From contig JASUSX010000119.1 in the NCBI GenBank assembly GCA_030445875.1, positions 1-6,983 on the forward strand: a stretch of 6,983 nucleotides of DNA, in the 5' to 3' direction. Positions within the stretch are counted from its first letter, which is position 1. Every line of letters starts with the position of its first letter. Under the pieces are notes generated by a model. It searched no databases and was not told the origin of the DNA. It was given only the letters and a program-made list of their open reading frames with translations. This document shows positions 5,514-6,983 of this stretch, in pieces. The translations under genes were made by a program, and so were the position numbers. The DNA is from Clostridia bacterium (lineage in GTDB: Bacteria > Bacillota > DSM-521 > Neomoorellales > Neomoorellaceae).

Positions 5514-5861
5514 CTACACCCGGTACTGGGGTATGCCGCCACCCATCTGGTTAGCTGTACCCATCTGGGCTCCCATTATGCCGCCCTGCTGGATCTGCGC
5601 CTGCTCCTGCTGCAGGCGCTGCTGCAGCTGGCTGATCTCCTGCTGGCTGGCCATATTGAGCTGGTACCAGCCCCGGGCGTGCATGACATCCCACACCGCC
5701 TTGAGGCAGTTCTGCTCATCCTGGTAAACGGCCAGGAAATCCCGCCGCAACTGGTCGTTGGCGGATTCGGTAATGGCCGTATTATAGCAACTCGTCAAGA
5801 GCTTCTCGCTGGCCAGGCAATCGCTGCACATGGTTTTGTCGTCGAATTGTTGCATGGGCAT
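5514..5861 (-). CDS. CotF-like spore coat protein
   Basis: 115 residues. The segment at about 5-70 resembles the coat F (ferritin-like helical) domain of spore coat proteins: DDKTMCSDCLASEKLLTSCYN (7-27), then LRRDFLAVYQDEQNCLKAVWDVMHARGWY (38-66). The family's typical elements are the D-x-LxxEK helix and the closing MxxRGWY. A Gln-rich probable coiled segment follows (73-92), then a Gly/Met-rich tail ending QYRV. Cysteines at 12, 15, 25 and 52, including a CxxC, could cross-link in the coat; that is inference. ATG at 5861 was chosen because GGGGGAG lies just upstream, and the longer frame to 5981 adds Pro/Ala-rich sequence from the overlapping upstream gene. Fourteen nt separate it from that gene, so the two are surely one unit. 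Expected in the mother cell or spore coat. Confidence 0.85.
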   Translation of the reverse strand: MPMQQFDDKTMCSDCLASEKLLTSCYNTAITESANDQLRRDFLAVYQDEQNCLKAVWDVMHARGWYQLNMASQQEISQLQQRLQQEQAQIQQGGIMGAQMGTANQMGGGIPQYRV

Positions 5862-5875
5862 GGTATACTCCCCCT

Positions 5876-6076
5876 CTACATCATATGCTGCCCGCCCAGG
5901 TGGCGGATCAGGGTGTTGTAGTGGCGCTGGTGGGCCTGCTGCACAGACCCCAGCACCTGTTTTAACTGGGGATCGCTGCACTGGGCCGCATAGGCGCCAA
6001 ATTTCTGGATCATCAACAGTTCATTACTCAGGTTCTCACGGAGCTGCATTACTTCAGCCTGGGTTAAACCTGCCAT
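5876..6076 (-). CDS. Small spore-coat-type helical protein, partner of the CotF-like protein
   Basis: 66 residues, predicted as two amphipathic helices: LTQAEVMQLRENLSNELLMIQKFGAYAAQC (4-33) and DPQLKQVLGSVQQAHQRHYNTLIRHL (35-60). The pattern ELLxxxKxxxYAxxxxDPxLKxxLxxxxxxHxxHxxxL resembles short coat/ferritin-like helical proteins encoded beside CotF in clostridial spore formers. The Glu and His positions recall ferritin-like proteins, but there are too few helices for a full di-iron site in one chain. The start is well supported: AGGAGG lies 7 nt before ATG at 6076. The stop is 14 nt before the CotF-like start, whose ribosome binding site begins at once, so the proteins are probably made together, and may assemble together. 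The exact family name is uncertain. Confidence 0.75.
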   Translation of the reverse strand: MAGLTQAEVMQLRENLSNELLMIQKFGAYAAQCSDPQLKQVLGSVQQAHQRHYNTLIRHLGGQHMM

Positions 6077-6116
6077 GGTAGACCCTCCTTCGAAATGAGA
6101 TGTGGGAAGCGCTGGC

Positions 6117-6171
6117 GGCGGTGTGCCGCCATGGGGGACGAGAAACTTTTCTCTAGGTAATATTTCCCCCC
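6117..6171 (-). other. Two hairpins in the leader of the spore-coat unit
   Basis: Given as plus-strand positions: GGCGG (6117-6121) pairs with CCGCC (6126-6130) around a 4-nt loop. Separately, GAGAAA (6140-6145) pairs with TTTCTC (6148-6153), inside an outer GGGGG (6133-6137) to CCCCC (6166-6170) pairing. Both lie between the presumed promoter and the ribosome binding site at about 6084-6090. They could stabilise or regulate the mRNA; no known riboswitch class fits. Confidence 0.4.
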
Positions 6172-6180
6172 TGTAGCTCT

Positions 6181-6186
6181 ACTATA
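6181..6186 (-). promoter_or_regulatory. Possible -10 element for the spore-coat unit
   Basis: The minus strand reads TATAGT, one mismatch from TATAAT, about 105 nt before the coat start. It overlaps the perfect 10-bp palindrome ATACATGTAT (6184-6193). No good -35 is visible at 16-18 nt. A sporulation sigma factor would be expected for these genes, but I found no clean sigma-E, sigma-G or sigma-K pair, so this is weak. Confidence 0.22.
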
Positions 6187-6212
6187 CATGTATCACGTTA
6201 ACCATATATAGC

Positions 6213-6237
6213 CAGAAACCGGGGCCCAAACCCCGGC
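6213..6237 (-). terminator. Rho-independent terminator of the glutaredoxin-like gene
   Basis: On the minus strand, GCCGGGG pairs with CCCCGGT around TTTGGG (6237 to 6218, outermost pair G-U), followed by TTTCT. It lies 42 nt past the stop at 6279. A smaller hairpin, GCCGC/GCGGC with a 4-nt loop (6257-6270), precedes it. It separates the redox gene from the spore-coat unit. Confidence 0.75.
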
Positions 6238-6278
6238 TTCCAGGTGCAAGATTGGTGCCGCCACAGCGGCCTACCCCT

Positions 6279-6515
6279 TCAATGGAACACTTTATTCAAG
6301 CGGTTTTCGTCAAACCCGACAATCACCTGGCCGTTGACGACCAGGGTGGGCACAGCCATAATACCCCGGTTGCGCCGGCGCAGTTCCTCCATAGCCCCGT
6401 CATCGGTGCTGATATCCTTTTCTTCGTATTGAATACCTTGCTGGGAAAGATACTCTTTCACCGAAACACAGGCGGGTCAGGTCGGTGTCGTGTAGACGAC
6501 AACATTATTCGGCAT
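6279..6515 (-). CDS. Glutaredoxin-like selenoprotein with a UxxC active site (in-frame TGA)
   Basis: Read from ATG at 6515 (GGAGG 8 nt upstream), the frame gives MPNNVVVYTTPT, then TGA at 6479-6477, then PACVSVKEYLSQQGI and onward to a final TGA at 6279, for 78 residues in all. This matches the glutaredoxin/NrdH family along its length. The first strand is VVVYTTPT, the redox motif is U13-P-A-C16 in place of CxxC, the cis-proline motif is AVPTLVV (54-60), and NGQVIVGFD (61-69) follows. TGA falls exactly at the nucleophilic cysteine, the hallmark of selenocysteine substitution. UxxC glutaredoxin-like selenoproteins are known in clostridia. It would be a cytoplasmic thiol-disulfide oxidoreductase with higher nucleophilicity than a Cys form; the electron donor and partner are unknown. 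The alternative is a nonsense-mutated gene, but every other motif, start, ribosome binding site and terminator is intact. A caller ignoring Sec would start at GTG 6461 and lose the active site. Confidence 0.88.
6445..6479 (-). promoter_or_regulatory. Candidate bacterial SECIS element
   Basis: On the minus strand, 22 nt after the TGA, GAAAG (6459-6455) pairs perfectly with CTTTC (6449-6445) around the 5-nt loop AGTAT, which has G at its second position. This agrees with general bacterial SECIS rules: a small apical loop with G in the first two positions, placed roughly 16-37 nt from UGA. A competing fold, TTTC-GGT-GAAA (6466-6456), has a GGU loop only 14 nt from the TGA. The two share bases, so only one can form. 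Confidence 0.6.
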
Positions 6516-6567
6516 GGGGTTTACCTCCCGGGAGAGTTTTTTCTTAGTCTGCCTGGATGGCAAAGTT

Positions 6568-6596
6568 ATTATGCTCTGCCCGGCGCCGGGAGTGCA
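6568..6596 (-). promoter_or_regulatory. Possible promoter of the glutaredoxin-like gene with a palindromic spacer
   Basis: On the minus strand a -10-like CATAAT (6573-6568) lies 17 nt after a poor -35 candidate TGCACT (6596-6591). The spacer contains CCCGGCGCCGGG (6579-6590), a perfect 12-bp palindrome. A start near 6561 would give a leader of about 45 nt. The weak -35 with a symmetrical spacer suggests an activator or repressor site, but the element is only a pattern match. Confidence 0.35.
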
Positions 6597-6615
6597 GCCT
6601 TATCCTATATATCCT

Positions 6616-6641
6616 GCTAGCCCAAAAATTTACGGGCTAGC
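6616..6641 (-). other. Inverted repeat directly after the aminotransferase stop
   Basis: GCTAGCCC (6616-6623) and GGGCTAGC (6634-6641) form a perfect 8-bp stem around a 10-nt A/T-rich loop, touching the TAG stop at 6642-6644. On the minus strand no T-run follows (AGGATATATAGG), so it is a poor intrinsic terminator. It may protect the 3' end of the mRNA or terminate incompletely. Confidence 0.5.
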
Positions 6642-6983
6642 CTACTTACGTTTAAAAAGGGAGCCCAGGGCGGTCTTAGCGCTGCTTAAAGTAACGCCAA
6701 TAAAGCCCAGACCATGTAAAATGGCTTCCAGGGCCGCCAGCACCTGTTCAATCTCTTCCTTAGCCACAACCAGAGGCGGTTCCAGGCGGATGACATTGGG
6801 GTTATTTAATGTGTAGGCGGTAATGATCTGGTGTTTATTCATCAGTTCCCCGGCTACCAGGGAGCCGAAATACTCCCCGGCCAGTTCATTCACCCTGCCG
6901 CGGGTAAGTTTATCCAGCCACCCGCCCACCGGCTGGTTAAACTCCAGGCCGATGATGAGCCCGCGGCCGCGGACGTCTTTAAT
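6642..6983 (-). CDS. Class III PLP-dependent aminotransferase, C-terminal part (5' end beyond the window)
   Basis: The open frame enters from the right edge and supplies 113 C-terminal residues to TAG at 6642. IKDVRGRGLIIGLEF at the edge and NNPNVIRLEPPLVVAKEEIEQVLAALEAIL later are the characteristic end of class III (ornithine/acetylornithine/putrescine/GABA-type) aminotransferases; the RLEPPL segment is near-invariant there. These PLP enzymes move an amino group between an omega-amine or amino acid and a 2-oxo acid in the cytoplasm. The catalytic lysine lies upstream, outside the window, so the substrate cannot be judged. The final 24 or so residues, HGLGFIGVTLSSAKTALGS then a basic end, extend past the usual fold end and could be an extra helix. 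The gene precedes the glutaredoxin-like gene by 126 nt with a hairpin between, so the two may or may not share a transcript. Confidence 0.88.
   Translation of the reverse strand: MKDVRGRGLIIGLEFNQPVGGWLDKLTRGRVNELAGEYFGSLVAGELMNKHQIITAYTLNNPNVIRLEPPLVVAKEEIEQVLAALEAILHGLGFIGVTLSSAKTALGSLFKRK

Follow-up and report, generated by a model that had tools for sequence, protein, structure and literature searches.

A glutaredoxin-like gene in the 6,983-nt stretch of DNA analysed here (the window) contains two in-frame TGA triplets, one at the place of the first, nucleophilic cysteine of a CxxC motif and one at its end. This raises the question of whether the first is read as selenocysteine (Sec), as a preliminary description had proposed from the letters of the sequence, and what would distinguish it from the second.

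The gene, its protein and its family

Translation confirmed a glutaredoxin-like gene at 6515..6279 as described, and placed it on the minus strand, which had been left unstated; the plus-strand reading of 6279..6515 encodes nothing of interest. The gene comprises 78 codons followed by a terminal TGA (6279..6281, minus strand), the second TGA at which it had been said to end. Its ATG start (6515-6513, minus strand) is preceded at a distance of 8 nt by GGGAGG (6524..6529, minus strand), a likely ribosome binding site with a similar purine-rich stretch in most of the listed relatives. With TGA translated as Sec, the minus-strand product reads MPNNVVVYTTPTUPACVSVKEYLSQQGIQYEEKDISTDDGAMEELRRRNRGIMAVPTLVVNGQVIVGFDENRLNKVFH, in short form MPNNVVVYTTPTUPACVSVKEYLSQQ...VGFDENRLNKVFH, after which the terminal TGA follows. 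The internal TGA is codon 13 (6477..6479, minus strand) and, as had been claimed, takes the first active-site position of the glutaredoxin motif, here UPxC (UPAC), where homologues carry either Cys or the same TGA. The second, presumably resolving cysteine is codon 16 (6468..6470, minus strand) and is Cys in 10 of 10 distinct sequences from the genus. AVP and VGFDE motifs lie C-terminal to it, and the proline of the former is, from the fold, what we take to be the cis-Pro. The start, ribosome binding site, second cysteine and GFD motif of the preliminary description were thus all located in the sequence.

The protein matched the Pfam Glutaredoxin family (PF00462) with 68.9 bits against a gathering cut-off of 22.9. 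With C written for Sec, it narrowly passed NCBIfam Uxx_star (NF041212; 66.5 bits, cut-off 66) and missed the YruB family (TIGR02196; 86.1 bits, cut-off 88.55), and it remained far below the cut-offs of UXX-star families 1, 2 (NF041211) and 3, with 33.3, 52.6 and 32.2 bits versus 72, 100 and 97. The best PDB match by sequence was 7c10, a chain named Glutaredoxin (69.5 bits), which we take to be cGrx1 of Clostridium oremlandii. In the available text of the study on cGrx1, it is a native selenoprotein with a U/CPXC motif and the proposed reductant of the selenoprotein MsrA (PMC7642778). It shares the U/CPXC motif with the predicted window selenoprotein, with moderate sequence similarity; the redox partners tested for it, according to the same text, were glutathione and MsrA.

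That the class itself is not new, as had been stated, is borne out by the existence of the NCBIfam Uxx-star family and by a 2006 survey by Zhang et al., which in the text available to us lists six selenoproteins for Moorella thermoacetica, namely SelD, two FdhA, HdrA, FrhD and a glutaredoxin (PMC1794560). The listed glutaredoxin shares genus and protein name with the window gene and comes from another species, with no sequence given in that text. Because each genome of the genus holds a single close UGA copy, the window gene probably corresponds to the listed protein, which was therefore known in the genus; the class is known, and the window gene adds a new copy as a further member. Our literature search found no paper on a glutaredoxin-like selenoprotein of Moorella.

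UGA13 in relatives and the Sec machinery

The read-through protein was matched in 41 of the 81 genomes searched. Its own genome and each of the 10 genomes of the genus that were searched contain exactly one internal TGA and no other internal stop in this gene, and the TGA invariably falls at the UxxC position; the same-genus copies are 65-79% identical to the window protein. The closest named relatives are Moorella (four of five loci in contigs of named genomes, and all four named entries among nine database proteins). Of the other seven genomes in the family, five contain a TGA copy; the sole match in G015 is weak and stop-free, and G013 has none. One genome of the genus has, some 8 kb away from its Sec copy, a second glutaredoxin-like match that is free of stops and 35% identical (G009:C1:2158859-2159071).

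A wider comparison used 100 high-scoring homologous copies (30 loci from the search of 81 genomes, to which 10 and then 60 were added); they are a top slice, a search of 398 genomes having given matches in 235. The alignment at residue 13 that the preliminary description had called for gave TGA in 63 copies and a Cys codon in the other 37. The TGA was never replaced by TAA or TAG in the 63 copies with a stop-type codon, unlike the terminal stop, which drifts between TGA (4), TAA (4) and TAG (3) across 11 genes of the genus, so that seven of these end in TAA or TAG instead of the window's TGA. The protein N-terminal to the UGA is conserved within the genus (codons 4-12) despite synonymous variation, with codons 9 and 10 using three and four synonymous codons for one amino acid among the 10 distinct sequences. 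Judged by this comparison, UGA13 behaves as a codon and not as a stop.

The selenocysteine machinery was sought in the window's genome, a 1.57-Mb assembly of 163 contigs (the window being contig C106) that is estimated to be 58.8% complete. A tRNA-Sec was found there with 69.5 bits (cut-off 47) and anticodon tca. Of the other genes that had been proposed as a check, selA had no match in this 58.8%-complete assembly, and selB and selD had only matches below their cut-offs (best 79.5 of 242 bits and 78.9 of 125 bits, respectively). A missing selB had been named as a refutation of the reading, and no selB over the cut-off was found here, but the assembly is incomplete and selA, selB and selD were all over their cut-offs in 10 of 10 genus relatives. 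In the four relatives compared (G001, G003, G008 and G010), selC is preceded by selB at a distance of 4.8-5.0 kb; since selC in the window's genome begins at base 226 of its contig, 225 bp from the contig end, selB would be expected to lie off the contig. Across the wider set, SelB exceeded the cut-off in every one of the 62 other genomes that have a Sec copy (17 + 45) and in 14 of the 31 with Cys copies only. The window's genome also encodes a formate dehydrogenase alpha subunit (FdhA; locus L063 on contig C157, 864.5 bits) with one internal TGA within NVDHCARTUHAPTVAG, presumably the Sec site of this enzyme. Downstream of that TGA, TGGCCGGTCTGGCCA could form a candidate SECIS hairpin with a GGTCT loop.

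These data bear on three other readings of the internal TGA. If UGA13 were a true stop, the real protein would begin at the GTG of codon 19 and be 60 residues long. This is what gene callers choose: the same 60-aa reading frame appears in the open reading frame list of the window, and eight of the nine relatives in databases begin at this codon, after the active site, with lengths of 59-60 aa. Such a protein would lose both active-site residues, and the reading would not account for the synonymous changes in codons 4-12, whose protein sequence is conserved, for Cys homologues that run through the site, or for a triplet that is never TAA or TAG in 63 copies where the terminal stop varies; we therefore regard it as very improbable. 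The truncation is better seen as the effect of standard gene calling that had been predicted for this gene. These eight entries lack residues 1-18, the catalytic one among them, so that the protein would be taken for inactive or missed, for instance when proteome data are searched.

A sequencing error or a pseudogene might be suspected in an assembly as fragmented and incomplete as this one, and is scarcely credible given that the same TGA recurs in each of the 10 genomes searched within the genus and in five of the seven other genomes of the family. Equally hard to credit is that UGA encodes tryptophan or is passed by read-through of a general kind. One 80-aa database relative (P0010) does carry Trp at the Sec site (KTWPHC), which may stem from a genuine UGG codon or from Trp having been written for UGA. 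Homologues have Cys at this position, not Trp, TGA serves as the terminal stop where relatives use TAA or TAG, and a tRNA-Sec is present in the genome.

A conserved hairpin downstream of the UGA

The preliminary description had left it to local RNA structure to decide which UGA is read as Sec, and downstream of UGA13 there is a conserved hairpin that agrees with the bacterial SECIS model in stem, loop, loop G and spacing. The core of this putative SECIS element (6445..6459, minus strand) starts 17 bases 3' of UGA13 and consists of a GAAAGA stem, a GUA loop (6453-6451) and a UCUUUC stem; below it, a bulged U and two further G-C pairs (GG/CC) extend the hairpin to 6443-6462. According to the available text of a 2026 review, the bacterial SECIS model has a loop of 3-9 nt, an upper stem of 4-16 bp, a spacing of 16-37 nt from the UGA, a G at loop position 1 or 2 and an energy of at most -7.5 kcal/mol (PMC13188914). 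The window hairpin, with a loop of 3 nt, a stem of 6 bp, G as the first loop base and a spacing of 23 nt, agrees with all four structural features; its energy is -7.1 kcal/mol for the 22-nt core, slightly weaker than the -7.5 of the model, and -13.5 kcal/mol for 63 nt. The fold of the core had a z-score of -4.08, and none of 200 shuffled sequences matched it. For the region as a whole the energy was unremarkable (z was -1.29, and 22 of 200 shuffled sequences and 1650 of 5000 synonymous recodings folded equally well), and it is only the local hairpin that sets the region apart. An Rfam search of the last 1000 bases of the window returned no SECIS family and only a chance sub-threshold match to a snoRNA.

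Conservation of the hairpin follows the TGA. All six pairs were present at the fixed offset in 57 of the 63 Sec copies and in 3 of the 37 with Cys (Fisher P = 4e-17, with kinship not corrected for). Codons 19-23 (GTG AAA GAG TAT CTT) are invariant across the 10 distinct genus sequences, and the encoded motif KE[FY]LS is shared by 54 of the 63 Sec copies, as against 5 of the 37 with Cys. In all 54 Sec copies with this motif the Leu23 codon is CTT, which elsewhere in the window (seven other genes) serves for 3 of 147 leucines. When the window gene was recoded synonymously 5000 times, the six-pair stem survived in only 2 cases. With KE[FY]LS found mainly in Sec copies, the RNA signal appears to dictate the protein sequence here. 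The hairpin also provides a simple DNA signature, UGA and then GAAAGAGTWTCTTTC from the 18th base on, with which the family can be found and re-annotated.

RNAalifold on 24 distinct Sec sequences retained the six-pair stem alone, with a covariation term of 0.04, a value this low reflecting how little the stem varies. In the related Sec copies L113 and L114 the stem is AAGAGA/UCUCUU, with two pairs changed on both sides. The full stem is absent at the usual offset in the remaining 6 of the 63 Sec copies, which keep five pairs (L111), three (L125, L131, L146 and L148) or two (L151), and one further Sec copy (L095) has a loop without G; these seven may use another form of SECIS.

Some Cys copies keep the hairpin. 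Two of them (L102 in G208 and L110 in G343) have a TGC codon with the complete hairpin, and a third (L080 in G318) has TGT with the stem kept and the loop G replaced by A, while two others (L108 in G155 and L132 in G378) have decayed stems. SelB is present in all five genomes and a tRNA-Sec with anticodon tca in G208, G343, G318 and G155, which rules out a variant tRNA-Sec anticodon as the cause of the hairpin-bearing Cys copies in G208, G343 and G318. A tree of 98 distinct sequences over 77 columns, in which 42 of 95 inner branches were unresolved, placed L102, L108, L110 and L132 beside Sec copies, with strong support for L102 and L132 and less for L108 and L110; L080 fell in an unresolved, mostly Sec part. 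The Cys copies with a retained hairpin are likely to carry a fossil SECIS after recent replacement of Sec by Cys. Fossil SECIS elements of this kind were reported in 2006, in the text available to us, for FdhA and a HesB-like protein (PMC1794560). A search of titles and abstracts for SECIS elements with Cys codons or fossil SECIS gave nothing on point.

With homologues carrying Cys or Sec, a tRNA-Sec in the genome, the conserved hairpin and the truncated database copies all in its support, the interpretation first put forward for this locus stands: with a probability of about 95%, from comparative sequence data, UGA13 would be read as Sec in a small glutaredoxin-like protein, aided by the predicted hairpin 17 bases downstream. 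By extension from what is known of selenocysteine decoding in bacteria, SelB loaded with Sec-tRNA(Sec) would bind to the GAAAGA-GUA-UCUUUC hairpin and bring Sec to UGA13, and the terminal UGA would act as an ordinary stop. The 78-aa product is a predicted thiol-disulfide oxidoreductase in which, by analogy, Sec13 may attack the disulfide of a substrate or, as has been suggested for the C. oremlandii relative, an MsrA intermediate, with Cys16 then resolving the selenenylsulfide. It is also conceivable that the protein is a selenoprotein whose Sec13 binds a metal or another ligand and takes no part in disulfide exchange, since the 2026 review, in its available text, allows that the Sec of UXX-star proteins may be a metal ligand or bind unknown substrates (PMC13188914). 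We consider this unlikely for the window protein, whose UPxC motif includes a resolving Cys as in dithiol glutaredoxins and whose nearest PDB chain is named glutaredoxin.

Gene neighbourhood

The upstream neighbour is the C-terminal part of a class-III aminotransferase that runs off the window (6642..6983, minus strand), with NCBIfam aminotransferase matches and a weak match to Pfam Aminotran_3 (25.1 bits, cut-off 30.5). Downstream, also on the minus strand, lie a 66-aa protein that is weakly Coat-F/ferritin-like (5876..6076; sub-threshold Pfam matches to DUF3231, 16.8 bits, and Coat_F, 16.6 bits) and a Coat F domain protein (5514..5861; Pfam Coat_F 75.4 bits, cut-off 25.7). The first ATG of the latter is at 5861, and the open reading frame list has a longer GTG start at 5981. 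A scan of 5984-6983 found nothing resembling a terminator; its single promoter-like site lies on the plus strand, and 0.9 such sites were expected.

Conservation of these neighbours was followed by tblastn against 39 homologous loci, with about 1.5 kb on either side and E at most 1e-4. The aminotransferase was conserved at 16 of the 39 loci and each of the two Coat-F-like genes at 17. The full block of aminotransferase, Sec-glutaredoxin, Coat-F-like 66-aa protein and Coat F protein (window 5514-6983) was present at 16 loci (L014-L029), of which 10 belong to the genus, five to the family and one to another family of the same order. Partial blocks were seen at L032 (same order; the Coat-F pair only) and L083 (aminotransferase only), and none of the three neighbours at the other 21 loci.

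Because a block with two Coat-F-like genes is kept at 16 loci in two families, the Sec-glutaredoxin could be imagined as a spore redoxin in the order of Moorella, reducing or rearranging disulfides during coat assembly or germination of very heat-resistant spores. We offer this only as a tentative and rather doubtful lead, since the full block was seen only within the order and shared descent alone could therefore explain its conservation. Two Coat-F proteins are reported in the spore proteome of M. thermoacetica, and the available text of that paper contains no glutaredoxin, 'selen', 'thioredoxin' or 'disulfide' (PMC8745062). A literature search on selenoprotein glutaredoxin and spore coat found nothing relevant.

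Elsewhere in the window, the minus-strand genes between 3 and 5177 resemble a pathway module. They code for an aldolase-like protein (the first gene, named from its translation), an acetylating acetaldehyde dehydrogenase, a 2-oxopent-4-enoate hydratase-like protein, a molybdopterin-synthesis-domain protein, a NadC/ModD-like protein and a regulator of the IclR type. The same gene order recurs at three other loci (L073-L075) for the IclR, NadC-like, molybdopterin-domain and hydratase-like genes.
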